Shown here: piece after piece, positions 5,944-49,627 of the stretch
Layout of the letters: each line of letters opens with the position of its first letter
How positions within the stretch are numbered: position 1 is the first letter of the stretch
Source of the DNA: Priestia megaterium
Lineage (GTDB): Bacteria > Bacillota > Bacilli > Bacillales > Bacillaceae_H
Length of the DNA stretch: 64,000 nucleotides
Direction of reading: 5' to 3'
NCBI RefSeq assembly: GCF_009497655.1
Contig: NZ_CP023317.1
Location: 3,439,501 to 3,503,500 of the forward strand
The notes under the pieces: generated by a model
Databases searched by the model: none
The model's input: the letters and a program-made list of their open reading frames with translations, nothing else
What the model was told of the DNA's origin: nothing
Position numbers and translations under genes: made by a program

Positions 5944-6693
5944 TCACCCTAATTTGCGTTTGAATTCTTTACTAGCGAACAAGTAAGCGATGACCATGAT
6001 ACCTAGGCACCAGGCAAGGGCACTCCAGATATCGTTGCCAACAGATCCTTCATACAAGAGTGCACGAATCGTATTCACGATTGAAGTCACGGGCTGGTTC
6101 TCGGCGAATGCCCGAACAGCTTTAGGCATCGTTTCAGTGGGAACAAAGGCGGAACTAATAAAAGGTAGGAAAATCAGTGGGTACGAGTAGCCTGTGGCTC
6201 CTTCCATAGATTTCGCTGTCAGTCCTGGAATAATGGCCAACCATGTCAGGGCTAGCGTAAACAGCCCGAGTATCCCGGCTACCGCGAACCAATCTAGGAT
6301 ATCAGCGCTGGAACGGAAACCCATCAAGAGCGCGACGAAGATAACTATCACGATAGTAAGGGCATTGGAAACAAAAGATGTCAACACGTGAGCCCATAAT
6401 ACCGAAGAACGTTTAATGGGCATGGTGATGAAACGGGCCATCAGTCCACTTTTTACATCATTAAATAGCCGAACGGAAGTGTAAGCGACGCCGGATGCGA
6501 TAGCCATCAGCAGGATTCCCGGTAATAGATAATTGACGTAATTGGCTGTTCCTGTATTTATAGCGCCACCAAATACGTAGACAAACAGTAGCATCATCAT
6601 AATTGGCGTAATCGCCACCGTAATAATCGTATCCGGGCTGCGCATAATCGTGCGCATCAAACGTCCTAGTAATACAACTGTATTGTTTTTCAT
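5944..6693 (-). CDS. ABC-2 type permease (DrrB-like drug efflux)
   Basis: A 249-residue ABC-2 permease with six predicted membrane helices, of the daunorubicin-resistance DrrB type. It starts one base after the stop of the ATPase gene and forms the membrane half of the exporter. Base composition is visibly GC-richer than the neighbouring operons, suggesting the cassette was acquired. Substrate is unknown; related PadR-linked DrrAB systems export antibiotics or other lipophilic compounds. Confidence 0.87.
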   Translation of the reverse strand: MKNNTVVLLGRLMRTIMRSPDTIITVAITPIMMMLLFVYVFGGAINTGTANYVNYLLPGILLMAIASGVAYTSVRLFNDVKSGLMARFITMPIKRSSVLWAHVLTSFVSNALTIVIVIFVALLMGFRSSADILDWFAVAGILGLFTLALTWLAIIPGLTAKSMEGATGYSYPLIFLPFISSAFVPTETMPKAVRAFAENQPVTSIVNTIRALLYEGSVGNDIWSALAWCLGIMVIAYLFASKEFKRKLG

Positions 6694-7455
6694 TTACATT
6701 TCCTCCTTTTTGCCGATGATTGCGAGGAAGATTTCCTCTAATGTTGGCTGTTTCTCAATGTATTCCACTTTTGCTGGGGGGAACATCTCTTTAAGTTCGG
6801 TAAGGGTACCGGTTTTGATGATTTTTCCGCCATGTAGGATGGCTATACGATCTGCCAGTTGTTCAGCTTCTTCCAGATACTGAGTCGTGAGCAAGATGGT
6901 CGTACCACCGCCAGCAAGCTCTTTGATAGTGTTCCAGACTTCAATCCGGGCTTCCGGATCAAGTCCGGTCGTCGGTTCGTCGAGAAAAATAACAGCTGGC
7001 GCCCCAATCAGACTCATAGCTATATCAAGTCGGCGCTTCATTCCACCGGAATATTGATCCGCCCGGCGATTGGCTGCATCGGTCAAGCTGAATCTTGCAA
7101 GGAGATTGTCAGCTACTTCATTAGGATTAAATACCCCTCGCAATTTGGCGATCATTATCAGGTTTTCCTTCCCAGTAAGCATGCCGTCTAACGCTGCGAA
7201 CTGCCCCGTTAGGCTGATGTTTTGGCGGACGTCAGCCGGTTGACGTTGGACGTCAAATCCGCAAATACTTACTTCGCCGCTATCAGCCTTCATCAGTGTT
7301 GAAAGAATGTTAACTGTCGTCGTCTTCCCTGCTCCATTTGAGCCCAGCAGTGCAAAAATTTCACCGCGCTGCACCTCAACATTCACCCCTTTTAAAACTT
7401 CTTTGTCTTTAAAGGACTTTTTTAATTCTTTTACAAAAATCGCTGTATTTCTCAT
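6694..7455 (-). CDS. ABC transporter ATPase (DrrA-like)
   Basis: A 253-residue ATP-binding subunit. Walker A is LGSNGAGKTTT (about 37-47), the signature is YSGGMKRRLD, Walker B is AVIFLDEPTTGLDP, and the switch histidine is replaced by Gln in LLTTQYLEEAE, as is usual for DrrA-type proteins. It pairs with the permease encoded immediately downstream. A PadR-type operator lies about 125 bases upstream, in the gap after the DUF1048 gene, so this half of the cassette probably has its own repressed promoter. Confidence 0.9.
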   Translation of the reverse strand: MRNTAIFVKELKKSFKDKEVLKGVNVEVQRGEIFALLGSNGAGKTTTVNILSTLMKADSGEVSICGFDVQRQPADVRQNISLTGQFAALDGMLTGKENLIMIAKLRGVFNPNEVADNLLARFSLTDAANRRADQYSGGMKRRLDIAMSLIGAPAVIFLDEPTTGLDPEARIEVWNTIKELAGGGTTILLTTQYLEEAEQLADRIAILHGGKIIKTGTLTELKEMFPPAKVEYIEKQPTLEEIFLAIIGKKEEM

Positions 7456-7578
7456 ACGTTTTTCCTCCTTTTAAAAAGCTCCACAAGCTTGCTTGTTAGA
7501 ACTGTCATGATGTAACTAAGCTGAGCGTCTCGTAGAGCTAGGTTTTTGATACCTTACTATTCAGTCTGACTGATATTC

Positions 7579-7592
7579 TGTATCACTTAGTA
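7579..7592. promoter_or_regulatory. PadR-type operator before the ABC genes
   Basis: GTATCACTTAGTAC fits the imperfect palindrome GTAnnACTTAGTA that recurs three times around the padR promoter. The surrounding bases (7563-7592) also resemble 8411-8440 (both contain TCTGACT then ATTCTGTAT). Lying upstream of the ATPase gene, it is a probable binding site for the local PadR repressor. Confidence 0.6.
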
Positions 7593-7644
7593 CTGAGTTT
7601 GAAAAATGACTGAATAGCAAAAGCAACTAGCTATTCAGTCGATG

Positions 7645-7998
7645 TTATTGATTAAATTTATTTTTTCCTAATCGTTCCTTAATACTCTGGTTCAAATCTT
7701 CACGATACTTAACCATATAAGTTTTAGCATTTGCCACTAATTCGTCAGCAAAGGAAGCCACATCGTCTCCAGTAATTTCGAGCACCTGTCTACCTTCTGC
7801 AGCACCTGCTTCGAATAAATCAATTAATTCATACTGCATGTGTAGCATATCCATTCCGTTGCCCGATGAGAAATTCCACATGTAGTTTTGAATTTTTTTA
7901 AATACAAACTGATAGTCCTCTGGCAAGGCTTCAACCCGTGCCATCATCATTTTATACTCTTTTTTATCACCAATCATTTTTTTGAATATTTCCAACAT
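7645..7998 (-). CDS. DUF1048 family protein
   Basis: A 117-residue, largely helical, charged protein beginning MLEIFKKMIGDKKEYKMMMA. The family (DUF1048) is regularly encoded beside PadR regulators and DrrAB-type transporters, which is what is seen here. It lies about 70 bases downstream of padR on the same strand with AAGGAGG before the ATG. No catalytic motif is visible; a scaffolding or sensing role is possible but unproven. Confidence 0.8.
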   Translation of the reverse strand: MLEIFKKMIGDKKEYKMMMARVEALPEDYQFVFKKIQNYMWNFSSGNGMDMLHMQYELIDLFEAGAAEGRQVLEITGDDVASFADELVANAKTYMVKYREDLNQSIKERLGKNKFNQ

Positions 7999-8068
7999 GT
8001 CATTTTTCCTCCTTTTTATAAAGCTTCATAAGATGCTTTAAAACTATCCGACGGTCTATCCTATGAAG

Positions 8069-8395
8069 CTAGTTTGACTTCAAGACGTTGATTTTTGATG
8101 ATACAAAATCCCACCTTTTCCAAAACAACTCAAGCTCCTTGTAGCCCGCCTCATTAAGCGAATAAAATTTGCGGGGTGGGCCCATATCTGATGGTTTTTT
8201 TTCTATATTCACAAGTTTTTTCTTTTCTAATCGTACGAGAATAGTGTAGACCGTTCCTTCCACGACCTCGATAAATCCAAGCTCGTTCAGACGGCGTGTA
8301 ATCTCATAGCCATAGGTTTCATGGCGGCTGATAATTTCTAACACACAGCCTTCCAGCGAACCCTTCAGCATTTCAGTTAAATTTTCGATCTTCAG
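8069..8395 (-). CDS. PadR-family transcriptional repressor
   Basis: Winged-helix PadR protein with the family core LKGSLEGCVLEIIS, YGYEITRRLNELGF and VEGTVYTILVRLEKKKLV, followed by GPPRKFYSLNEAG. Start uncertain. The frame is open back to a TTG at 8443, but that TTG lies next to an operator copy and has no ribosome site. A CTG at 8395 follows AGAGGAGGTT and gives KIENLTEMLKG, as I recall for close relatives; an ATG at 8371 is the shortest option. I chose 8395. It very likely represses itself and the DrrAB cassette through the four repeated operators. Confidence 0.82.
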   Translation of the reverse strand: MKIENLTEMLKGSLEGCVLEIISRHETYGYEITRRLNELGFIEVVEGTVYTILVRLEKKKLVNIEKKPSDMGPPRKFYSLNEAGYKELELFWKRWDFVSSKINVLKSN

Positions 8396-8426
8396 AACCT
8401 CCTCTATATTGTCTGACTTATATTCT

Positions 8427-8520
8427 GTATTACTTAGTACCAAGCCAATTTTTACTTAATAACTTTTAAAATTAAGCTATTAAGTAATACTTAGTATATG
8501 TAGATTGTAATACTTAGTAC
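8427..8520. promoter_or_regulatory. Cluster of three PadR-type operators
   Basis: Three near-identical 14-mers lie in the padR promoter: GTATTACTTAGTAC (8427-8440), GTAATACTTAGTAT (8484-8497) and GTAATACTTAGTAC (8507-8520). The last two start 23 bases apart, about two helical turns. With the fourth site at 7579 they define a local regulon of regulator plus exporter. Confidence 0.65.
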
Positions 8521-8588
8521 CGGGCATTTCAACTATTTTTTAAAATATTTTCAAATGTAGATATATTCAGGGATAATACTAAGAACCA

Positions 8589-8634
8589 AAAAAACTTATT
8601 AAAAGAATCCATAAGTTCTTTTAATAAGTTTTTT
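8589..8634. terminator. Bidirectional terminator
   Basis: AAAAAACTTATTAAAAGAA pairs perfectly with TTCTTTTAATAAGTTTTTT (19 bp, 8-nt loop). T-runs on both strands allow termination either way; it ends the small minus-strand gene at 8662-8856. Confidence 0.7.
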
Positions 8635-8668
8635 CCGTTACAGATACCGTTACAGATACCTTTACAGT
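8635..8668. repeat. Short 12-bp tandem repeat
   Basis: CCGTTACAGATA occurs twice head to tail, followed by a degenerate third unit CCTTTACAG that overlaps the stop region of the next gene. It is probably replication slippage; no function is visible. Confidence 0.5.
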
Positions 8669-8856
8669 TTTTCCGTATAACCTCTTAAATTTCGAATTAA
8701 AAAAGAGATCCCCGTCAGTAAACAATTAAGAAACAAATATTTAGTCAGATAGTGTTGAAAACTGTATGTGAAGTAGAAGTATAAGAAGAACACAAAACTA
8801 AAATAGAAAATAAACTTTAAATATCTTTTTAAAACTGCGTTATGAGGAGAATTCAC
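8662..8856 (-). CDS. Small membrane protein, unknown function
   Basis: About 64 residues beginning MNSPHNAVLKRYLKFIFYFS, with two hydrophobic aromatic-rich segments and a basic C-terminus (RNLRGYTEKL). The GTG at 8856 is preferred because AAAAGGAG lies 8 bases before it; an upstream ATG at 8880 overlaps this ribosome site. A strong terminator follows. I do not recognise the family. Confidence 0.5.
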   Translation of the reverse strand: MNSPHNAVLKRYLKFIFYFSFVFFLYFYFTYSFQHYLTKYLFLNCLLTGISFLIRNLRGYTEKL

Positions 8857-8930
8857 GTTGACTACTCCTTTTAAAGTCATATAATAAAATTATTTTTTTA
8901 ACCTATATTGAACCATTTTTCTGTGTTATT

Positions 8931-9833
8931 TTACAAAACAATTAGAAAAATGATAGGCAATGTAGCAAGGCTTAGAGAGGTACTAATTAACGTTGCGCTT
9001 GATACAAACTCCGGCTCTGTATTAAATTGCAGCGCATACATAGTTGTATTAGCAGCTGTGGGCATAGCAGCCATAATAATCATAATTTGTTTAACCATCT
9101 CATCCACAGGTAGCAGAAGAGTTAGTATATAAGCGATAAATGGTGAGATTACAAGCTTGATAGCTAATGACCATGAAACTTTGGCTTTGGCTAAATTTCT
9201 AATTGATATTTTAGCAAGCTGCATGCCAAGTACGATCATGATGGTAGGAATAGCTGCACCCGCTACTAAATCAACCGCTTCTTTTACAGAGTTGCTTAAT
9301 GGAATATGAAGAAACTGAAATATAGCTCCTAAAAGTCCCCCATACACAATTGGTATCCGTCTAACTGAGTCAATGGCTGATTTTATACCATTTCCCTGTG
9401 GACTTCCTTTAGCTGCATAGTAAACTCCAACTGTACACATGACCAATTGCTGTATGACCATTAAAATAATGGCAGAGTCTAAGCCTGTCACGCCAAAAAG
9501 TAATAAAACAACGGGTGTACCGTAGTTTCCATTATTCATAAATGAAGACGCTAATATCATTCCACAGGTTTCTGAAGTAGAATATCGCTGAAAATAAGCA
9601 ATAATATAGACGACAGCAATTAATGCAAAGCAAAGTGCAAATGTGTATAACGTAAGATATAAGTAATCAATCGTAAATTTGGTTGTGTAAAATGTTTTGA
9701 ACACTAGAACTGGAGACATCAAATAAAGTGCCATTGTTGAAATCGTTTTGGTATCAAATCCTATTTTCTTTTGTCCAATAAATCCAAGTGCAAAAATCCC
9801 GAAAATAGGAAGAAGGATTGTTAGGAACTCCAT
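8931..9833 (-). CDS. AEC-family transporter (possible sulfolactate exporter)
   Basis: A 300-residue auxin-efflux-carrier (AEC) family permease with about ten membrane helices; relatives move malonate, malate and other organic anions. It lies just downstream of the sulfolactaldehyde dehydrogenase gene on the same strand, but a strong terminator separates the two, so it is either expressed by read-through or independent. As the sulfo-TAL pathway ends in sulfolactate, which must be excreted, export of that anion is an attractive but unproven job. Confidence 0.8.
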   Translation of the reverse strand: MEFLTILLPIFGIFALGFIGQKKIGFDTKTISTMALYLMSPVLVFKTFYTTKFTIDYLYLTLYTFALCFALIAVVYIIAYFQRYSTSETCGMILASSFMNNGNYGTPVVLLLFGVTGLDSAIILMVIQQLVMCTVGVYYAAKGSPQGNGIKSAIDSVRRIPIVYGGLLGAIFQFLHIPLSNSVKEAVDLVAGAAIPTIMIVLGMQLAKISIRNLAKAKVSWSLAIKLVISPFIAYILTLLLPVDEMVKQIMIIMAAMPTAANTTMYALQFNTEPEFVSSATLISTSLSLATLPIIFLIVL

Positions 9834-9871
9834 GTTTGTTCACCTTCGTCATTTTTTCTTTGTTATTTTCC

Positions 9872-9913
9872 AAATGAAAGACCTAGAAAATTAAGAATCT
9901 AGGTCTTTCATTT
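9872..9913 (-). terminator. Terminator after sulfolactaldehyde dehydrogenase
   Basis: AAATGAAAGACCTAG / CTAGGTCTTTCATTT form a 15-bp perfect stem with a 12-nt loop, starting 12 bases past the stop codon. The flanking T-run on the minus strand is short, so read-through into the AEC gene is possible. Confidence 0.65.
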
Positions 9914-9924
9914 AAACTAATACA

Positions 9925-11358
9925 TTATAAATTTAGAACAATGATACGTTCTTCCGTCATTTCTTCAATTGCATATTTTGGACCTTCTTTTCCGTTACCG
10001 CTCTTTTTCACACCGCCATACGGCATATGATCGACACGATACGCTGAAGCATCATTTACAATTAATCCGCCTACTTCGATTTCACGAGCTGCCTTCATAG
10101 CAAACTGTAAGTCGTTCGTAAAAAGGCCTGCCTGTAACCCATAGTCAGAATCATTTACTTTTGAAATCACTTCATCAATCTCATCATATTGAGCAATAGC
10201 TACTACTGGCCCGAATACTTCTTGACGACAAACTTTCATCTCATCATTTACATTAGTCAAAATTGTAGGAAGATAAAAAGCACCGTCACGCTTTCCTCCA
10301 AGTTCAATTTTTGCCCCTTCTTCCACCGCTTCTTTTACCCATTCTTCCACTCTCTCTGCTTCTTTAAGACGAATCATAGGTCCAATATCGGTTTGCTCAT
10401 CCATTGGATTACCGACTACTAACTTTTCTGTTTTTTCTTTTAGCTTATTAACAAAAGCAGTATAAATATTCGTATGAACATAAATTCGTTGAACGGAAAT
10501 GCAAACTTGTCCTGCGTTATTAAAGCTTTTTTGAGAAATTAAAGATGCAGCTTTTTCTAAATCAGCGTCTTTATGTACGACAGTAGCCGAATTATTTCCT
10601 AGTTCAAGTGAAACTTTACGTAAACCTGCCTTAGATCGGATAAGTTCTCCTACTCTTGGGCTTCCTGTGAACGTAAACATATTAACATCTTGGTTTTCTA
10701 ATAACCATTCACCAATTGCTGCCCCATCTCCAGTCAATACTTGAAGGCGCCCTTTTGGCAGCCCTGCTTCTTCCATTAACTCAGCTAGCTTGAGCGCACA
10801 AATTGGAGTGACTTCAGCAGGCTTTAATACTACACTGTTCCCAGCTGCGATTGCCGGTCCAAGTTTATGACAAACTAGATTGATAGGTACATTAAACGGT
10901 GTGATAGCTGCAACAACTCCAACCGGGACTTTTACTGTAAAAGCCATACGATTCTCCGAGCCTTGAGCCGATTCAACAGGCACACCTTCTCCATGAATAC
11001 GTTTTGCCTCTTCCGCTGAAATTTGTAAAGTTGTAGCTGCGCGCTCAACTTCTCCGCGAGATTCACGAATAGACTTTCCAACTTCAGTAGCCAAAATTTC
11101 AGCAAATTCTTCTTGACGGCTTAGTAATAACTCAGCTGCCTTCATTAATACCTCGTAGCGTTCGTACGGTGAAAAAGTGTTTTTTAACGCCTCTTTCGCG
11201 CTGGCCACAGCTTTATTTACATCGTCTTTTGTAGCTACTGAGATTTCAGCTGCAGGCTGCTGCGTATATTTATTTAAGACTTCCATTTTTTCTGCTGTTG
11301 TTTCCCATTCCCCATTTACATATAAACCATATTGTTTGACTTGAGTTAAACTTGTCAT
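9925..11358 (-). CDS. sftD: Aldehyde dehydrogenase, probable 3-sulfolactaldehyde dehydrogenase
   Basis: A 477-residue NAD(P)-dependent aldehyde dehydrogenase. Catalytic Cys286 lies in NNAGQVCISVQR and the general-base Glu252 in LELGNNSATVV; the cofactor-binding FTGSPRVGE segment is present. In a gene cluster with a sulfoquinovosidase and SftT-like transaldolase it is the obvious enzyme to oxidise 3-sulfolactaldehyde to 3-sulfolactate, as reported for Bacillus sulfo-TAL strains. It starts about 30 bases after the GntR gene and is probably cotranscribed. The family alone would also fit other aldehydes, so the substrate rests on context. Confidence 0.82.
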   Translation of the reverse strand: MTSLTQVKQYGLYVNGEWETTAEKMEVLNKYTQQPAAEISVATKDDVNKAVASAKEALKNTFSPYERYEVLMKAAELLLSRQEEFAEILATEVGKSIRESRGEVERAATTLQISAEEAKRIHGEGVPVESAQGSENRMAFTVKVPVGVVAAITPFNVPINLVCHKLGPAIAAGNSVVLKPAEVTPICALKLAELMEEAGLPKGRLQVLTGDGAAIGEWLLENQDVNMFTFTGSPRVGELIRSKAGLRKVSLELGNNSATVVHKDADLEKAASLISQKSFNNAGQVCISVQRIYVHTNIYTAFVNKLKEKTEKLVVGNPMDEQTDIGPMIRLKEAERVEEWVKEAVEEGAKIELGGKRDGAFYLPTILTNVNDEMKVCRQEVFGPVVAIAQYDEIDEVISKVNDSDYGLQAGLFTNDLQFAMKAAREIEVGGLIVNDASAYRVDHMPYGGVKKSGNGKEGPKYAIEEMTEERIIVLNL

Positions 11359-11388
11359 TATCTCCACATCCCCAATTGTATTAGCGTT

Positions 11389-12123
11389 TTATCTTGTAAG
11401 CTCAATATTGTAATGATATTTGTCACTGCGATATTTTGTTACCGTAAATTCGAGTGGCTTATCATCAAAACCGTAACTTACTCGTGTCATTTCAAGTAAA
11501 GCTTCTCCGCCTCGTATGCCTAACAGATCGGCTTCATAAATCGTTGCATTAATCGCAGATATCTTCTCTTTAGCTCGTTTCAAGAAGATTTCATTATCTT
11601 CTAGTACTTCATAAAATTTTGCACGGTTTAAATCTTGTTCAACTAGTATTTTCCCAATATGCGTAGGCCAGCAAGAACGTTCAATGGCAATAGGCACTTC
11701 ATCGGCAAAACGAATTCGTTCAATAACTAAAACCTCTTCTCCAGCATCCAGTTCCAGCATAGAAGTTTCATAATATAAATCTTTTTTAAAATCAGTACGA
11801 ATGAGTTTTGAATTCGGCGTTAGTCCTTTTTCTGCCACTTCTTCTGCTAGTCCTTTAAGCTTGCCTAAGCTACCGCCAATAAGCGGCTGAGGTTTTACAA
11901 TTGTTCCTCTGCCTTGTTTTTTTTCCAGCAGTCCATCCTGTACTAGCATAGAAATAGCTTGTCTTAAGGTAGTACGGCTTACATCAAATTCTTGCATTAA
12001 TTCTTGTTCTGTTGGAATTAACGTATTCGGCTTCCAAACTTTTTCTTGTATACGTTTAATTAAGACATCTTTTACTTGAAGATAAAGCGCGATATTTTTA
12101 TTAGAACCGATTGTATCTTTCAT
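11389..12123 (-). CDS. GntR/HutC-family regulator of the sulfoquinovose genes
   Basis: A 244-residue protein with an N-terminal GntR winged helix (about 10-80, containing EFDVSRTTLRQAISML) and a C-terminal UTRA ligand-binding domain typical of the HutC subfamily. The promoter contains an inverted repeat with AAGTTAGC arms flanking a TATAAT box, as expected for an autoregulated repressor. Encoded inside the cluster, it most likely senses SQ or a pathway intermediate such as sulfofructose. An AAAAGGAG ribosome site precedes the ATG. Confidence 0.86.
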   Translation of the reverse strand: MKDTIGSNKNIALYLQVKDVLIKRIQEKVWKPNTLIPTEQELMQEFDVSRTTLRQAISMLVQDGLLEKKQGRGTIVKPQPLIGGSLGKLKGLAEEVAEKGLTPNSKLIRTDFKKDLYYETSMLELDAGEEVLVIERIRFADEVPIAIERSCWPTHIGKILVEQDLNRAKFYEVLEDNEIFLKRAKEKISAINATIYEADLLGIRGGEALLEMTRVSYGFDDKPLEFTVTKYRSDKYHYNIELTR

Positions 12124-12140
12124 GTTCTCAAACTCCTTTT

Positions 12141-12180
12141 AAGTTAGCGTTTGGTATTATTATATAGTATTGGCTAACTT
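12141..12180 (-). promoter_or_regulatory. Inverted-repeat operator of the gntR gene
   Basis: AAGTTAGC and GCTAACTT, perfectly complementary, flank a 24-bp centre that contains a minus-strand TATAAT at 12159-12164. This places a repressor site on each side of the -10 element. No convincing -35 box is seen. I did not find the same arms at the other promoters of the cluster. Confidence 0.55.
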
Positions 12181-12207
12181 TTACTGTAGCAGAGAAGTAG
12201 GATCTTT

Positions 12208-13548
12208 TTAGACATAGACCTTTGTTTCTAGATTAAGCATGCGCCCTAGTTCAATTAGATGTTCTGTCACATCACCATACACTAGTGCAAAGTGAGGCTC
12301 ATATCCCGCATGCATAAGTTCATAAAGTGTGTCTGATGCATTTGTCGCCAGTTCCACTTCTACAGATGTACCTGTAAAAGGCTGCTCTACATCTAAGGCA
12401 TCTCCTTTCATCACTAGAAGGCGATACCCATCAGGCGTATGACTTACCCTGAAGATCGTTACTTCTCCTGCTTTTAATCCGAAATCCATTGCAAAACCAA
12501 TTTTTCTGTTAGGATGCACCCCTGCTGTTGCTCCGGTAGAAGGATTGGCAAGTGAATATGCTCCTGCACCGCAGTGCCAAAAAACAACTGAGTTTTTTTC
12601 TTCGTCTATGTGAACTAAATCTCCCAGGTAAGGTGCATTTCCCCCTGCTAACTCACGCAGGATAAACATGGAGATTGATCCGTGAATATCTGACTCACAG
12701 GATGTCACCATTCCGTCTTCCGTAAACTGAGACAGCGTTGAGCACGGAGCAGCTCCTAAATCATTAAAGAAATCTGGCCAGCATCGCATAGCTAATGCAT
12801 CTAACTCTTCACGTTGAATGTGCTTTTTAATATAAGTGGAAAATTGAGCAAATTTAGCAACGGTTTCATCGTTTCGATTTAGACCAATCACCTGCTTTTC
12901 TGCCCGCTCAACTTCCCCTATCCATTCGTGTTCTGGAAGTTTTACGCACTCTTTAAACGCTTCTTGTAAATCCATCTTATGAAGAGTTACGCCAAGTGCA
13001 CTTTTTAATTCATCTTCGTTAGCTTGTGAAAAGAAGAATCCCGGCGGATAATCTCCCACTACCCCAATTTTTAATTCATTTAATGCTTTTAACACGCGCA
13101 TAACGTTAATTTGTCTTAATAGACGCTCCTGCAAGGCTTTCTCATCTGGATTTCCAAATACAAACGCAAACGGATGCTGATGATTACGCAGCACATTACT
13201 GGTGCTATTTCCGCCTGTTAGAGAGTTTAAACGTAAACGTCCCCCTACACTTGGCTCACGTACGGACCAAACAATTACAGGCTGTTTAAAATACTCCAAT
13301 ATCTTAACCATAAATTCACCGTCGGCAAACGTAACGCTTTGATATAGAACGGTATCAATCTTATCCCCTTTAATTGAATCAAGAAATCCCTGTAATTCTT
13401 CAACTGAAGTTATAATTTGCTCCGGCGCGATAAGAGTACTGCAGTTGCCGTTCAGCCACTCCATACTTTTTTGACGATACATTTCAGCCGCTTCAATATC
13501 AAATGTTTTTCTACCTATAGGCACATATAAAACTGTTGTATTTTGCAT
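12208..13548 (-). CDS. L-fucose/arabinose isomerase-like protein
   Basis: A 446-residue member of the L-fucose isomerase-like superfamily, recognised from its overall fold pattern (LYVPIGRKTFDIEAAEMYRQ start, TFADGEF, GVVGDYPPGF, CWPDFFNDLGAAPC, ESDIHG, HCGAGAYSLANP). These proteins use a divalent metal to interconvert aldoses and ketoses. Within the sulfoquinovose cluster it may isomerise SQ to 6-deoxy-6-sulfofructose, or act on an SQ epimer, while the DUF4867 protein is the other isomerase candidate. It has its own promoter in the 113-bp gap after the GH31 gene and an AAGGGGAAC ribosome site. Confidence 0.78.
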   Translation of the reverse strand: MQNTTVLYVPIGRKTFDIEAAEMYRQKSMEWLNGNCSTLIAPEQIITSVEELQGFLDSIKGDKIDTVLYQSVTFADGEFMVKILEYFKQPVIVWSVREPSVGGRLRLNSLTGGNSTSNVLRNHQHPFAFVFGNPDEKALQERLLRQINVMRVLKALNELKIGVVGDYPPGFFFSQANEDELKSALGVTLHKMDLQEAFKECVKLPEHEWIGEVERAEKQVIGLNRNDETVAKFAQFSTYIKKHIQREELDALAMRCWPDFFNDLGAAPCSTLSQFTEDGMVTSCESDIHGSISMFILRELAGGNAPYLGDLVHIDEEKNSVVFWHCGAGAYSLANPSTGATAGVHPNRKIGFAMDFGLKAGEVTIFRVSHTPDGYRLLVMKGDALDVEQPFTGTSVEVELATNASDTLYELMHAGYEPHFALVYGDVTEHLIELGRMLNLETKVYV

Positions 13549-13586
13549 ATAGAGTTCCCCTTGTCGTAAAACTATTTGTTATAACC

Positions 13587-13615
13587 ATTTTAAAATACAT
13601 CATTACCTTTATCAA
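13587..13615 (-). promoter_or_regulatory. Sigma-A promoter of the isomerase-like gene
   Basis: On the minus strand TTGATA (13610-13615) and TAAAAT (13587-13592) are separated by exactly 17 bases, about 40 bases before the ATG. This suggests the second half of the cluster can be transcribed independently of the importer promoter. Confidence 0.5.
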
Positions 13616-13661
13616 CACTATTTTCCGTTTGACTACATTTCTTATATAAATAGCTCTTAAA

Positions 13662-15701
13662 TTAGATGTGAAGTAGTTTAGAAAACAACTCACTCCATAT
13701 AGATTTTTTACGGTAAAATACAGGTGGATAACCTAATGGCGCTTGAACAGTAACCGATCCTCCTGTGTGCTCTTCACCGCTCCATACATGGACCCACTGA
13801 TCTTCTGGTAAATATACTTCCCACTCTGTTTGGTTTTCTTGATGAACCGGCGCAACAAGTACATCTTCACCAAATAAATATTGATATTGAATATCATATG
13901 TTTTTTCGTCTTCTTCATAGTGCATAAACAAAGGTCGCTGAACAGGAATTCCACGTCGCGCATTTTCTTCTACAAGTGATCTAATATAAGGTGCCATCGT
14001 TACATAAACATTAGACATTCTTGCTAAATGCTCTAGTGTCTCCTCATCACCGTCAAACTGGAAACAATCATCCGGACGATTTCCTTCATGTGTTCTCATC
14101 ATAGGCGTGAAGGCTCCCATTTCTGCCCATCTCATCAGCAGCTCTTTTGAACGTTTATTACCATGTAGACTTGTGTACCCGCCAATATCACTATGGTGTA
14201 AGCCACAGCCACTCATTCCTGATGATAAAGCTGCAGGAATAACGGAAGCTAAACCATCATCCAGCGACCAATCTACGCTTTGATCTCCGCCCCAAAGAAG
14301 CGTACAGTATTTTTGTATGCCCGTATATCCGGCGCGCATAAAGTATACAATTTCACCAAGTTTTCCTGCTTCTGATACCGCTTCATAGTTCGCTTTTGCC
14401 CACATTGTCGGCCAAGCATTATGCATAATCTTAGCGTCGACTCCATTTTTGAGCACAACATCCGTTGGTAAGTATTCGCCAAAGTCGGCCATCCATCCGT
14501 CTAATCCAAAATCAATCATGTTCTCTTTAATAACTTGTTTATACCATTCAGTAGCCTCTTCGTTGGTAAAATCCACAACTCCGCAATAAAATTCACCGAA
14601 ATCCACTAAATACGTATTTCCTTCCATATTTAATGCCAAGTATCCTTTATCTTCAGCTTCCTTATATAAATCACCTTCAATGGCTACATATGGATTAATG
14701 TAACCTAGAAAACGAATATCATTTTCTTTCCACTCTGCAATTTTTTTATCTAGCTCCGGGTATTCACTCTCGTTCCATTTCCAATTCCACATTAAACGTT
14801 TGCCGAAAGAAGTAATACGTTTGCCCTGCCAATCTTGGCACCATACTCCAGATACCTTCATACCTTTCGCTAAAACTTTTTCTAATTTTTGTTCAACAAC
14901 ATCTGTACCACCTTGAATACCTAAAACCACGCCGTTATATACCCAGTCTGGTAGCTCGGGCTGTCTTCCGAATAAACCCGTAATTTTTTCAACTAATTCA
15001 AGGTACGTATCCGCCGTTTCAAACAGCATATATTCAGGTACTTCCCAAACCTGCAGTTCATGGAACATCTCATTACGAAAATCAAAGTCCGCGTATGCCG
15101 TTGTTTCTACGTGACAATAGTACTTTTTACTAGATACATATGTAGGCTGAGGAAAGTTGGTATTATAGTAATCTCCTCCAGCTCTATCAACTACATCAGC
15201 TTGCCATGTTACATATGTCTGTTTGTTTCTTCCTACGCCCGGCTCAGATGTCCATAAAGGAAAGTTTTTTCCTCTCATATTAAAATGAGAAAGTTGTTCT
15301 CCGCATCCATAGACTTTTTCCTGTTTATCTGCAGCTACTCGTAACCAAAAGCGGTTAATGTTCGCATCGTGTTTTTGGTATTCTACTTTTAGACGGTCCT
15401 CTTCTTCCTTAACTATAAGAGATAGGATATGATCTCCATTTTTATAGCTGGAGAAATCTATTTTATATGCCCCTTCTACTTCTTCAACAGTTGCGTAGCG
15501 AAGAGCTGTACGTTCAGTCACATAATCTTTAATATCAAAGTTCCCTCGATACATTTCAATCGTTTCTTCTCCATAACCAACAAACAGCATTGGCTTTTGT
15601 ATTGTATGCTGAAGCAGAACTACACCGTTAAGAGCAACTTCAAATCCATCTTGTAAGATCTCCACATTGACTCCTTTAGTTACGTTTAAGGTACCTGACA
15701 T
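13662..15701 (-). CDS. yihQ: Sulfoquinovosidase (GH31)
   Basis: A 679-residue GH31 enzyme, almost the length of E. coli YihQ, and alignable by eye over its whole C-terminal two thirds. Nucleophile Asp406 (WMADFGEY) and acid/base Asp473 (GGDQSVDW) match YihQ D405 and D472. The sulfonate-recognising residues Q288, R301, W304 and Y508 correspond to Gln289, Arg302, Trp305 and Tyr509, all with the same +1 offset, so specificity for sulfoquinovose glycosides is well supported. No signal peptide, hence cytoplasmic hydrolysis of imported SQ-glycerol. GGGAGAG before the ATG at 15701 decides the start. Confidence 0.95.
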   Translation of the reverse strand: MSGTLNVTKGVNVEILQDGFEVALNGVVLLQHTIQKPMLFVGYGEETIEMYRGNFDIKDYVTERTALRYATVEEVEGAYKIDFSSYKNGDHILSLIVKEEEDRLKVEYQKHDANINRFWLRVAADKQEKVYGCGEQLSHFNMRGKNFPLWTSEPGVGRNKQTYVTWQADVVDRAGGDYYNTNFPQPTYVSSKKYYCHVETTAYADFDFRNEMFHELQVWEVPEYMLFETADTYLELVEKITGLFGRQPELPDWVYNGVVLGIQGGTDVVEQKLEKVLAKGMKVSGVWCQDWQGKRITSFGKRLMWNWKWNESEYPELDKKIAEWKENDIRFLGYINPYVAIEGDLYKEAEDKGYLALNMEGNTYLVDFGEFYCGVVDFTNEEATEWYKQVIKENMIDFGLDGWMADFGEYLPTDVVLKNGVDAKIMHNAWPTMWAKANYEAVSEAGKLGEIVYFMRAGYTGIQKYCTLLWGGDQSVDWSLDDGLASVIPAALSSGMSGCGLHHSDIGGYTSLHGNKRSKELLMRWAEMGAFTPMMRTHEGNRPDDCFQFDGDEETLEHLARMSNVYVTMAPYIRSLVEENARRGIPVQRPLFMHYEEDEKTYDIQYQYLFGEDVLVAPVHQENQTEWEVYLPEDQWVHVWSGEEHTGGSVTVQAPLGYPPVFYRKKSIWSELFSKLLHI

Positions 15702-15757
15702 TTTTATCTCTCCCATCAATTAATAGAGCTTAGTCTTTTATCTAACATTCATGCGCT

Positions 15758-16429
15758 CTATTGATAAACTTTAATATTTTCTCCTTTTATACCTGGGTGT
15801 GCGCCTTTATTGATTAATTGCTCTCTTTCAGGATGAGCAATTAACCATTTATTTTTCATAAACAATAACTCATCTTCTTTTGTTCTTTTTTGAATATTAG
15901 TTGATAACGGATCATTTGTTCCTTTAGGTAAAATGACGACTGTTTTAAACCCTTCGTTATTGACCTTACAAGGAGCAAAATGTAATGTCGTACCATACAA
16001 TTCAACTGCTGTTCCTTCAGGTACAAAGAAAGCGATTACATCACTTGAATTAAAAAAGTTATTTTCAACTCCCTGTACCTTACCTAATAAAAGAACCATA
16101 TCCGTTATAGCGATATTAATTTCACTGCTTTTATGATACTCAAGACCATTTAAGGTTGAATTAGGACCATTACAATATCCAATTTGAATAGGCATCTCAC
16201 CATAAAAAGCTTCTTGAAGCTGATCTTTAATAATGGTGTTTTCCATCTCAGTAACGGATGCTACGTATACATTCTGATCTTGAGGAATAGTTAAACTATC
16301 CATATATGTTTCTAGTTCACTGAAATCGTATTCATTAATTACCTTTCCATAAGGCTTAAATTTGCTGTCCTCTATATGATAAAAAGGTACATGTTTATTT
16401 AAGTCTTTCATGTATTGAAAGCTGCTCAA
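15758..16429 (-). CDS. DUF4867 cupin-like protein, candidate SQ isomerase
   Basis: A 223-residue protein of the DUF4867 family with a cupin-like beta-rich core (FFVPEGTAVELYGTTLHFAP). I recall this family as a conserved component of sulfo-TAL clusters in Bacillus and gut Firmicutes, and it is a candidate for the SQ to sulfofructose isomerase, but I cannot tell from sequence whether it or the L-fucose-isomerase-like protein does this step. It sits between sftT and the sulfoquinovosidase gene. Start: TTG with AAAGGAGAG 9 bases upstream. Confidence 0.75.
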   Translation of the reverse strand: MSSFQYMKDLNKHVPFYHIEDSKFKPYGKVINEYDFSELETYMDSLTIPQDQNVYVASVTEMENTIIKDQLQEAFYGEMPIQIGYCNGPNSTLNGLEYHKSSEINIAITDMVLLLGKVQGVENNFFNSSDVIAFFVPEGTAVELYGTTLHFAPCKVNNEGFKTVVILPKGTNDPLSTNIQKRTKEDELLFMKNKWLIAHPEREQLINKGAHPGIKGENIKVYQ

Positions 16430-16455
16430 CGTTTTCTTCTCTCCTTTTGCTATAT

Positions 16456-16501
16456 AAAAAGCCCCTCCAAGAAGATAATAAGATTCTAAGAGGCGCCTTT
16501 T
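16456..16501 (-). terminator. Hairpin between sftT and the DUF4867 gene
   Basis: AAAAAGCCCCTCC pairs with AGGCGCCTTTT with two internal mismatches, continued by a short AGAA/TTCT extension. On the minus strand it ends in a T-run. It probably acts as a partial terminator that makes the transaldolase message more abundant than the distal genes. Confidence 0.5.
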
Positions 16502-16516
16502 ATAAAATACATATGT

Positions 16517-17197
16517 TTATTTTAAGACAGGAGCTTCTGTGACTGTATTATCCCAAGCGTTGCGGAATTTGTTTAAACCATAGTCTGTGAACGCATGCTG
16601 GAAGCTTTCTTTATATACATCAAATCCGCAAGTCACAATATGCGCACCAGCTTTTGCCGCATCTACAATTTGTTTACCATTACGTAAAGCAGCAACAATG
16701 ATTTCTGTGTTGTAATCGTAGTTTTTATAGATATTCACAATATCCTGAATGTATTGAGTTGTATCGTCCCCGCTATTTTCTTTCCAGCCGACAAATGGAG
16801 ATACAAATTTAGCTCCAATTCTTGCAGGCTGAAGTGCTTGTGATGGCGAGAAGACAAGAGTGACGTTAGTAGAAATACCTTCTTTTTCAAATTCCTTTGC
16901 TGCAATTAAGCCAGGCTCTGTGCATGGAATTTTAATAACAAAGTTTGACGATAATTTAGCAATCTTTGTCCCTTCTTCTACCATATCTTTAGCATTATCT
17001 AAATGAGGATTGATTTCCACTGAAATCGGGAAATTTTCGACTCCTTTAAACTCACTTGCAAATTCATCTAAAACCGTTAAGAATGGTTTACCGCTGTTCA
17101 TAATGTGGCGAGGGTTTGTTGTAACTCCATCAATTGCCCAGTTTTCATACGCGTAACGAATTTCCTCTAAAATTGCACTATCTAAAAAATACTTCAT
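16517..17197 (-). CDS. sftT: 6-deoxy-6-sulfofructose transaldolase
   Basis: A 226-residue small transaldolase of the TalC/MipB type. Schiff-base Lys89 lies in NFVIKIPCTEPGL, and the barrel motifs FLDSA, GVTTNPR and NVTLVFSPSQA are intact. In the sulfo-TAL pathway this enzyme cleaves sulfofructose, releasing 3-sulfolactaldehyde and moving the dihydroxyacetone unit to glyceraldehyde-3-phosphate to give fructose-6-phosphate. The link to SQ comes from the adjacent sulfoquinovosidase. It has its own strong promoter with a cre-like spacer and a TGGAGG ribosome site. Confidence 0.9.
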   Translation of the reverse strand: MKYFLDSAILEEIRYAYENWAIDGVTTNPRHIMNSGKPFLTVLDEFASEFKGVENFPISVEINPHLDNAKDMVEEGTKIAKLSSNFVIKIPCTEPGLIAAKEFEKEGISTNVTLVFSPSQALQPARIGAKFVSPFVGWKENSGDDTTQYIQDIVNIYKNYDYNTEIIVAALRNGKQIVDAAKAGAHIVTCGFDVYKESFQHAFTDYGLNKFRNAWDNTVTEAPVLK

Positions 17198-17274
17198 CTT
17201 TATACCTCCAGTTAAGTGACTATTACCCCTAAAAGATAATGACCTTTATATAATTTGTAATAACCTTTGTATTT

Positions 17275-17303
17275 ATAATATGAAAACGCCACCAATATTT
17301 CAA
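17275..17303 (-). promoter_or_regulatory. sftT promoter with cre-like spacer
   Basis: Minus-strand TTGAAA (17298-17303), 17-bp spacer, TATTAT (17275-17280). The spacer carries TGAAAACGCCACCA (plus strand, 17281-17294), matching the cre consensus TGWAANCGNTNWCA at all but two fixed positions. The -10 and adjoining spacer are shared with the importer promoter at 18933-18961. Confidence 0.65.
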
Positions 17304-17360
17304 GTACTTTTTGCTAGATTATTAAATTAATTTTGTATTTCGTCCATTTTACCTATCATC

Positions 17361-18758
17361 TTACATTGGTATTCTATTTTTACTTTTAGCAAGATCCGCT
17401 ACGATTTTATTGTATTTTTCATCTGAAAGTTTATAAAAGAAAAACATGACAATAATCGTTGCAATGGCTAATGCACTTGGATAAATAAACATTAACCCTC
17501 TGATTCCCTCCAGTACATTTGCACTTTGCACCGCGTTTGGGACGTAACCCACAACTCCTAACACAACGCCAGGAATAAAGCCTGCAAGCGCTTGAGAAAG
17601 TTTACGGAAGAACGTAAAGAAAGAATACACAACACCTTCAGATCGATTTCCAGTCTTCCATTCGCCATACTCTACAGCATCAGAAACTAATGCCCAGTTC
17701 AAACTGTTTACAAATGAGCTTCCGAAGAAAGCAAAGCAAGCTAATGTAATAAAAATCACTGCGTTATCTGCAAAAACATAAGCTAAAATATCTCCTACAG
17801 CCCAAATCGCGCACCCTAATATGTACGTAGATTTCTTTCCAATCTTTTTAACCATGAAAGGAACCATTGCTACGCCGATAAATACACAGCCTATACTAAA
17901 AAAGCCCATATAAGGAACGATTGCTACATTTTTTAAAACGTACTGACAAAAATAGACTTGTACAGCAAGCTTGACGTTAAAAGCTGAAAAGGTAAACAAA
18001 TTAACTAAACAAAGAATGAGTAAAGGCGTATTCTTAAAAAGCCCTTTATAGCTGTCAGTCAGCTTTACATTTGTATTTTGGGGTTTTTCATACACATATC
18101 TTTCTTTTACATTGGCATAACAATAGACTTGTAATAAAACGCCCAAAAATGCAAAAATAGATACAGCCACTAAATAACCAGTAGATTGATTGTTAAACAT
18201 TAAGACAATCGGCATAAACCCTACAGTTGTAATAAGAAGGCCTAAATTTGAGCCTGCTTGTCTAAATGATGCCATTTCTGCTCGTTCAACGGGATCTTTT
18301 GTCATCGCAGGTACCATTGATCCATAAGGAATATTTGAAATGCTATAAATCGTTCCAAATGCCATATACGTTACATATGCCCATATAATCTTTCCGGTTA
18401 TTGAAAAATCGGGATTAGTAAAGCTGACTATCGTTATCAAAGCAAGCGGTATTGCAGCATAAAGAAAGAATGGTCTAAATTTGCCTTTAGGACCTATCTT
18501 CTTTCGATTATCAATCCAAGTACCTACTGTAATATCAGCGAACGCATCCCATATTTTTGTAATTAAAAATACTAAACCTGCTGTTGCAGAAGGCAAGCCT
18601 AACGCATCGGTATAAAACTTCAGCAAATAAATTTGACCCAAGTCTAACATAAAGTTATTTCCTACATCTCCCAATCCATAAGCAACCTTCTCTTTAAGTC
18701 TTAGTTTCTTAGGCGTATTAATTGAATGTTCTACATTTTGAACCAATGGCTGTTCCAT
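17361..18758 (-). CDS. GPH-family symporter, probable sulfoquinovose importer
   Basis: A 465-residue glycoside-pentoside-hexuronide:cation symporter with 12 membrane segments. Family marks are the N-terminal EKVAYGLGDVGNNFMLDLGQ-like segment, AFADITVGTWIDNR in the loop between helices 2 and 3, and SNIPYGSM. Preceding sftT in the cluster and sharing its promoter architecture, it most likely imports SQ or SQ-glycerol with Na+ or H+. AAAGGGGGAG before the ATG at 18758 decides the start over an in-frame TTG at 18782. Confidence 0.87.
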   Translation of the reverse strand: MEQPLVQNVEHSINTPKKLRLKEKVAYGLGDVGNNFMLDLGQIYLLKFYTDALGLPSATAGLVFLITKIWDAFADITVGTWIDNRKKIGPKGKFRPFFLYAAIPLALITIVSFTNPDFSITGKIIWAYVTYMAFGTIYSISNIPYGSMVPAMTKDPVERAEMASFRQAGSNLGLLITTVGFMPIVLMFNNQSTGYLVAVSIFAFLGVLLQVYCYANVKERYVYEKPQNTNVKLTDSYKGLFKNTPLLILCLVNLFTFSAFNVKLAVQVYFCQYVLKNVAIVPYMGFFSIGCVFIGVAMVPFMVKKIGKKSTYILGCAIWAVGDILAYVFADNAVIFITLACFAFFGSSFVNSLNWALVSDAVEYGEWKTGNRSEGVVYSFFTFFRKLSQALAGFIPGVVLGVVGYVPNAVQSANVLEGIRGLMFIYPSALAIATIIVMFFFYKLSDEKYNKIVADLAKSKNRIPM

Positions 18759-18932
18759 AAGTTCTCCCCCTTTGATTAACACATTTTAAGACTTCACATT
18801 AAACATGCATCACACAGAAGATTACAATTTTGATAGACTTCCAAACTTATAACCTCCTCTAAGTTGATACTAAAATCACCTCCCCCTTCATAACATCACA
18901 ATGTTTACAAAAAAGTTACTACCTTTTTATTT

Positions 18933-18961
18933 ATAATATGAAAACGCATACAAATTATCAA
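18933..18961 (-). promoter_or_regulatory. Importer promoter with cre-like spacer
   Basis: Minus-strand TTGATA (18956-18961), 17-bp spacer, TATTAT (18933-18938). The plus strand of the spacer reads TGAAAACGCATACA (18939-18952), one mismatch from the cre consensus. Binding of CcpA here would block RNA polymerase, giving carbon-catabolite repression of SQ uptake. The rest of 18759-19172 shows no other feature. Confidence 0.7.
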
Positions 18962-19172
18962 GTGTTTTTTTTATTTTATTTACAAAAGGCTGAATAATAA
19001 TAACAATAAATCTATAGATGTCCCTGGAGGAATAAGGATTCTTTTTGGGTTGTGTGTCGGAAAGAATGGTTATGTGCACTAGTTTTATACATGATATAAA
19101 GAACTTTCCAAAGAATAATTATGATAAAATGGGGTTAAAAGGAATTTAAAAATTAAAAGAGGTTAAATCAAT

Positions 19173-49514: not shown

Positions 49515-49627
49515 CTTATTTCAATATGAAGCAGCTTTAAAAGGTGTATGATTTATTTTTAAACTGATATTTATATCTTTTGTTTGAGGGAAACTTTATA
49601 GTAAACATCATGTATGTAAGCTTTGTT

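Follow-up and report, generated by a model that had tools for sequence, protein, structure and literature searches.

A chromosomal sulfoquinovose-to-sulfolactate gene cluster of Priestia megaterium, with a candidate exporter and a predicted operator

Sulfoquinovose (SQ) is the sugar of plant sulfolipids, and the sulfolactate to which it is broken down serves as food for other sulfur bacteria. The sulfoglycolytic transaldolase (sulfo-TAL) pathway of SQ breakdown reportedly goes back to two founding papers, Frommeyer 2020 and Liu 2020. SQ production is estimated at 10 billion tonnes a year (PMC12890257), and the organisms in which sulfo-TAL was described are Bacillus megaterium and B. aryabhattai, both now placed in Priestia (PMC12890257, PMC9594981). 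The sulfo-TAL clusters of gut Firmicutes such as Eubacterium rectale and Clostridium symbiosum likewise include the sulfoquinovosidase SftG, the isomerase SftI and the transaldolase SftT, with SftX in E. rectale (PMC11968277), but there sulfolactaldehyde is reduced to 2,3-dihydroxypropane-1-sulfonate (DHPS; PMC8397734, PMC11489063). Both SQ import and the export of DHPS or sulfolactate were called poorly characterised in 2022 (PMC8873060). Here we analyse an eight-gene sulfo-TAL cluster within a 64-kb stretch of Priestia megaterium DNA (the window); since the transport steps are poorly characterised, the conserved exporter candidate and the operator prediction that it yields are directly testable, if modest, additions to a known cluster.

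The cluster lies at 8931-18758 on the minus strand, as do all its genes and promoter-like sites described below, and its promoter begins at 18961, where the -35 hexamer of a promoter-like TTGATA-17-TATTAT starts. Pfam and NCBIfam scans give the transcription order as GPH importer, transaldolase, DUF4867 protein, GH31 sulfoquinovosidase, FucI-type isomerase, GntR/UTRA regulator, aldehyde dehydrogenase and AEC (auxin efflux carrier) family transporter, and translations of the open reading frames (ORFs) in the window show all eight genes to be intact and co-oriented. The original prediction of a complete sulfo-TAL cluster, which named a TalC-type transaldolase, a DUF4867 protein, an isomerase-like protein, an aldehyde dehydrogenase, a GntR regulator and a GPH importer beside the sulfoquinovosidase, thus agrees with the family scans, and its description of the pathway as established knowledge in Bacillus/Priestia is consistent with the literature on this group. 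Further evidence for the assignment comes from the transaldolase (SftT/SqvA, TAL_FSA family; 16517..17197), which aligns with the solved BmSF-TAL (8bc3) over 226 of 226 residues with only two differences (506 bits) and has the Schiff-base Lys89 named in PMC12890257. The DUF4867 and GH31 proteins are also close to solved chains, at about 94% and 97% identity. The same enzymes and the same type of sulfolactaldehyde dehydrogenase are found in the sulfo-TAL systems of B. (Priestia) megaterium DSM 1804 and B. aryabhattai SOS1, from which no difference was found in a comparison of proteins rather than of gene maps. We therefore put at roughly 0.93 the probability that this is the chromosomal sulfo-TAL cluster of the P. 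megaterium group, converting SQ to sulfolactate by the mechanism proposed below taken as a whole; the gene cluster itself is already known for Priestia (formerly Bacillus) megaterium-type bacteria. A plasmid origin was considered and rejected: the window sits on a contig of 5.03 Mb in a genome of 5.24 Mb and 3 contigs, and the interval 8500-19000 has no near-identical plasmid record.

For comparison with related loci, a contig scan with an 11-row SftI alignment recovered 101 relatives, of which 80 loci were retrieved. The census used throughout consists of 66 Bacilli loci at no less than 52% identity, with 14 loci at 29-33% (L114-L127) left out; absences in it are weak near contig ends (for example in L048, L050, L060, L062, L063 and L109) or at the ends of the 10-kb flanks. 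Sulfo-Embden-Meyerhof-Parnas 2 (sulfo-EMP2) clusters of Bacilli share with the window SftI, DUF4867, GH31, GntR, dehydrogenase and AEC genes, in most cases in the same order, along with the same type of operator, but in them a phosphofructokinase (PFK)-type sulfofructose kinase, SqiK, and a class II aldolase, SqiA, replace the transaldolase. The gene order and the AEC gene, singled out originally as deserving attention, therefore turn out to be ordinary: the order recurs in related Bacilli loci, and AEC is a regular member.

The sulfoquinovosidase (SftG/SqvC; 13662..15701), identified by family scan and by alignments with 8r56, 6pnr and E. coli YihQ (5aed), has 679 residues when read from the ATG at 15701, the ORF opening six codons upstream at 15719 (685 residues). 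It matches the solved 8r56 at 1561 bits, with the above identity counted from the alignment. Its Gln289, Arg302, Trp305, Tyr509, Asp406 and Asp473 each stand at +1 relative to their YihQ counterparts (the 685-residue ORF is offset by 7), as had been predicted for the four SQ-recognition residues, and both catalytic Asp are retained, also as predicted; we take these to be the YihQ residues that matter for SQ recognition and catalysis. The NCBIfam model that the protein matches, PRK10426, bears the name alpha-glucosidase, and one might accordingly read the enzyme as an ordinary alpha-glucosidase in a cluster for another sugar. Given the six retained residues, the closeness to 8r56, and partner enzymes that match sulfofructose transaldolase and SQ isomerase, we regard this as having a negligible chance of being right. 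A related question is which protein isomerises SQ, because the original prediction listed a second isomerase candidate, and the names SqvB and SqvD are interchanged within one paper (PMC11968277); both could point to the DUF4867 protein as the true isomerase, leaving the FucI-type protein with another task. The 446-residue FucI-type protein (SftI/SqvD, PF02952; 12208..13548) passes the curated model for the sulfoquinovose isomerase SftI, NF048012, at 829.4 bits (cut-off 700), though among solved structures no convincing relative was found by sequence (best E 0.46). A review assigns PF02952 to SqvD and DUF4867 to SqvB (PMC9594981), and in 10 of the 66 loci an isomerase gene occurs without a DUF4867 gene in the stretch examined. 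Hence we consider that exchange of roles very improbable; the second isomerase candidate was rejected, the two proteins being SftI/SqvD, the sole SQ isomerase, and SftX/SqvB.

The latter (15758..16429), recognised by family scan, alignment and residues, carries a PF16161 domain and a 2His-2Glu metal site (Glu97, His99, Glu103 and His150), the ligand positions being taken from PMC11968277. Its alignment with 9gyy extends over 223 residues (474 bits; identity again counted from the alignment), and we infer that 9gyy is the B. megaterium DUF4867 structure reported in that paper. SftX has been described as a metal cupin and proposed to be a ring-opening enzyme or mutarotase (PMC11968277, PMC9594981). 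Against such a role, PMC11968277 reports a nuclear magnetic resonance test in which SftX had no mutarotase activity on SQ or sulfofructose, within the limits of the assay. In the census the DUF4867 gene accompanies GH31 in 49 of 50 loci and is present in 7 of the 16 that lack GH31, a contrast weakened by contig ends and relatedness, and this co-occurrence is a hint that fits a role after SQ release by GH31.

Two further members of the pathway are the importer and the dehydrogenase. The GPH/MFS_2 sugar:cation symporter (17361..18758; Pfam and NCBIfam scans), whose ORF opens at 18782 and whose ATG at 18758 lies behind a ribosome-binding-site-like GGGGGAG, is, from its context, likely to import SQ or SQ-glycerol. 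The sulfolactaldehyde dehydrogenase (SftD/SlaB; 9925..11358, with residues numbered from 11358 in an ORF opening at 11367) was assigned from family scans and residues, and has Cys286, Glu252, His164 and Asn280, the last two forming the pair named for B. megaterium SlaB (PMC10599462). In an alignment of 63 dehydrogenase rows, the window included, His is present in 58 and Asn in 56; among the 25 listed of 44 matching NCBIfam models, none reaches its own cut-off. The dehydrogenase gene is found in 61 of the 66 loci.

Taken together, these assignments suggest the following mechanism. SQ or its glycosides would enter through the GPH symporter, and SftG would free SQ from the glycosides. SftI would convert SQ to 6-deoxy-6-sulfofructose (SF), perhaps with help from the DUF4867 protein, a cupin that may open the ring of SQ or SF. 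SftT would then pass the dihydroxyacetone unit of SF to glyceraldehyde-3-phosphate, yielding fructose-6-phosphate for glycolysis and sulfolactaldehyde, which the dehydrogenase would oxidise to sulfolactate for export by the AEC transporter. The GntR/UTRA protein would repress three promoters through AAAGGT-n6-ACCTTT-type palindromes until released by an SQ-derived ligand, and at cre-like (catabolite-responsive element) sites CcpA would repress the cluster when better sugars are present. The genes, families, residues, order and motifs in this scheme were computed here and the enzyme steps rest on the literature for this group, while the substrate of the importer, the role of the exporter, the operator, the cre sites and the role of DUF4867 are inferred.

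Two parts of this scheme appear to extend beyond Priestia. With modest confidence, we lean towards a joint proposal in which the AEC protein, or in some Paenibacillaceae an SBF-family protein whose predicted fold is distantly similar, is a dedicated Gram-positive sulfolactate exporter, and in which the GntR/UTRA operator and cre sites form a switch common to the sulfo-TAL and sulfo-EMP2 clusters across Bacilli. The AEC protein (8931..9833), identified by Pfam scan, structural model and census, scores 87.5 bits against PF03547 (Mem_trans; cut-off 25.7) and falls below the subfamily model TIGR00946 (79.1 against 246 bits). In the 61 loci with a dehydrogenase gene, the slot directly after it on the same strand is taken by an AEC gene in 46 cases and by one of the SBF family in 5; every one of the 46 AEC genes in the census occupies this slot, in sulfo-TAL and sulfo-EMP2 clusters alike. 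All 22 transaldolase loci have one or the other there: AEC in each of the 20 without an SF kinase, and SBF in both of those that also have the kinase. Of the loci that combine SF kinase with aldolase and lack the transaldolase, 39 in all, 26 have AEC, 3 have SBF and 10 have neither. None of the 5 loci without a dehydrogenase has either (one of them, L048, has only 3.5 kb of sequence beyond the isomerase gene). Uncorrected for relatedness, Fisher tests give 0.0017 for the association of AEC alone with the dehydrogenase and 0.0003 for AEC or SBF. The SBF assignment was made by testing PF01758 on one of the five proteins, to which the other four are 50-63% identical. In structure comparisons the AEC model (mean predicted local distance difference test, pLDDT, 81.5) best matched PIN8, with a template modelling (TM) score of 0.81, and ASBT homologues at TM up to 0.62, whereas the SBF model best matched ASBT (TM 0.76), with PIN8 at 0.58; this SBF model (mean pLDDT 71.5) was the best of its run, the remaining four having a mean pLDDT of 46 or less.

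Sulfolactate resembles malate. Many bacterial members of the family are labelled AEC transporter or malate permease, with substrates untested (PMC9330825). Gene context makes the AEC protein the leading candidate for sulfolactate export. A literature search returned no paper joining sulfoquinovose, sulfolactate and auxin efflux carrier, and one joining sulfoquinovose, Bacillus megaterium and operator was likewise not found, the two founding papers of the pathway lying outside the reach of both; the term AEC, as a word start, is absent from PMC11489063 and PMC12890257. The gap between the dehydrogenase and AEC genes (9834-9924) contains a perfect 16-bp hairpin (AAATGAAAGACCTAGA ... TCTAGGTCTTTCATTT) without a T run, which might tune AEC expression. 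A terminator scan of the window found 7 sites, no more than the 7.0 of shuffled sequence.

The GntR/UTRA (HutC-like) regulator (11389..12123; family scans) is presumed to be the local repressor. Three promoter-like elements, each matching the consensus at 10 of 12 positions, precede genes of the cluster. P1, ahead of the importer gene (18933..18961; consensus match only), has a cre-like site with one mismatch in its spacer (18939-18952) and is followed by two operator-like palindromes, at 18910-18927 (score 16.3) and 18890-18907 (12.8); they lie 20 bp apart, and the former begins 6 positions past the -10 hexamer. P2, ahead of the transaldolase gene (TTGAAA-17-TATTAT; 17275..17303; promoter scan), likewise has a cre-like site in its spacer (17281-17294, two mismatches), followed by a weak palindrome at 17252-17269 (7.7) and, at 17231-17248, the top-scoring one of the window (20.4), the two lying 21 bp apart and starting 6 and 27 positions past the -10 hexamer. 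P3, upstream of sftI-gntR-aldh-aec (TTGATA-17-TAAAAT; 13587..13615; promoter scan), has a palindrome inside it (13594-13611, score 17.1). These scores come from an 18-bp matrix whose training set was 311 upstream regions from the 66 loci, the window being excluded; in the held-out 64 kb the three best sites are those of the transaldolase (20.4), SftI (17.1) and GPH (16.3) genes, and the same three lead when only the 44 more distant loci are used (20.5, 17.0 and 15.1). Counting scores of at least 8, sites lie upstream of SftI in 47/57, the transaldolase in 20/21, GPH in 5/6 and the ABC binding protein in 26/27, and are rare upstream of AEC (2/42), SSS (1/9) and GH31 (0/10); the background is 30 of 1555 regions that were resampled so as to keep their first-order base steps. 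From this conserved motif, the AAAGGT-n6-ACCTTT-type palindrome is probably the GntR operator.

In a scan with a cre consensus at one mismatch or fewer, cre-like sites occur upstream of ABC (19/27), DUF4867 (18/49), transaldolase (6/21), GPH (4/6) and SftI (6/57) genes, with shuffled means of 0.8 or less, and among the relatives are thus enriched ahead of first genes; in the window, the sites in the P1 and P2 spacers suggest that CcpA represses the cluster in the presence of preferred sugars. A wider regulon was looked for and rejected: a pattern built from the three cluster sites had 4 matches in the 5.24 Mb, the three themselves and one at 2.82 Mb, and the reversed-pattern control had 2.

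Several observations weigh against the proposed exporter and switch. Ten of the 61 dehydrogenase loci have neither AEC nor SBF, so that an AEC-type exporter is not universal, and the structural matches of AEC to ASBT and of SBF to PIN8 are weak (best E 7e-4 and 4e-3). Those ten loci, with the fact that direction and substrate of transport are not readable from sequence, leave room for the AEC protein to bring SQ, SQ-glycerol or a carboxylate into the cell, or to have some other task, sulfolactate leaving by another carrier such as a TauE-type permease, for which a role in sulfonate export is proposed in Arthrobacter and Enterococcus gilvus (PMC8873060, PMC11489063). That 62 of the 66 loci already have a GPH, SSS or ABC importer gene, and that AEC invariably adjoins the dehydrogenase in two pathways with that step in common, makes this the less probable account, but it is a serious one, and we retain the AEC protein as candidate exporter. 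As to the switch, the promoter scan yields 44 sites where shuffled sequence gives 36.9 +- 6.2, little more than chance, so P1-P3 rest on their position and adjoining motifs. With the distant-trained matrix an unrelated site in the window, at 49627, reaches 14.7, close to the 15.1 of the third cluster site; operator-like sites precede only 27/49 DUF4867, 7/35 gntR and 7/13 dehydrogenase genes; and 7 places in the window, the GPH promoter included, match cre at one mismatch or fewer. The consensus-like site at 2.82 Mb has neighbours without a match to the cluster proteins, and is for this reason taken as chance. The pairing of palindrome and GntR being drawn from sequence, another regulator could own the palindrome, or GntR could be an activator; moreover, ten census loci have two GntR genes of the same family, and the second could own some sites. 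In L051-L054 and L056 it lies between the sulfoquinovosidase and isomerase genes (order G-R-I-R-D-AEC). We consider these alternatives rather unlikely, because the motif recurs in loci carrying this GntR family (63 of 66) and the palindromes lie within, or 6 or 27 positions past, predicted -10 hexamers, which fits repression.

Within the genus, a full-length SftI match is present in 4 of 10 genomes, including this one, with pieces only in a fifth; across the class, 33 of 398 genomes match SftI at E <= 0.001 and 7, again counting this one, pass the SftI cut-off. Two census loci, L067 (Paenibacillus alkaliterrae, 6122-15293) and L074 (P. ginsengihumi), carry both a transaldolase and a PFK-type SF kinase; their transaldolases are 77% and 75% identical to that of the window and keep Lys89, and L067 also has a class II aldolase, so by the look of it these are hybrid sulfo-TAL/sulfo-EMP2 clusters. 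Loci L098, L100, L102, L104 and others with gene family F13 are without GH31 and have a Gfo/Idh/MocA oxidoreductase (tested on the L049 copy), which may be of the NAD-dependent sulfoquinovosidase kind. The fifth genome of the genus has just two short SftI matches (G004:C66:6160-6704), one with two internal stops, which look like a decayed copy. Downstream of the cluster in the window, at 5944-8443, ORF translations indicate an ABC exporter-like pair and a PadR-like regulator, apparently unrelated to it.

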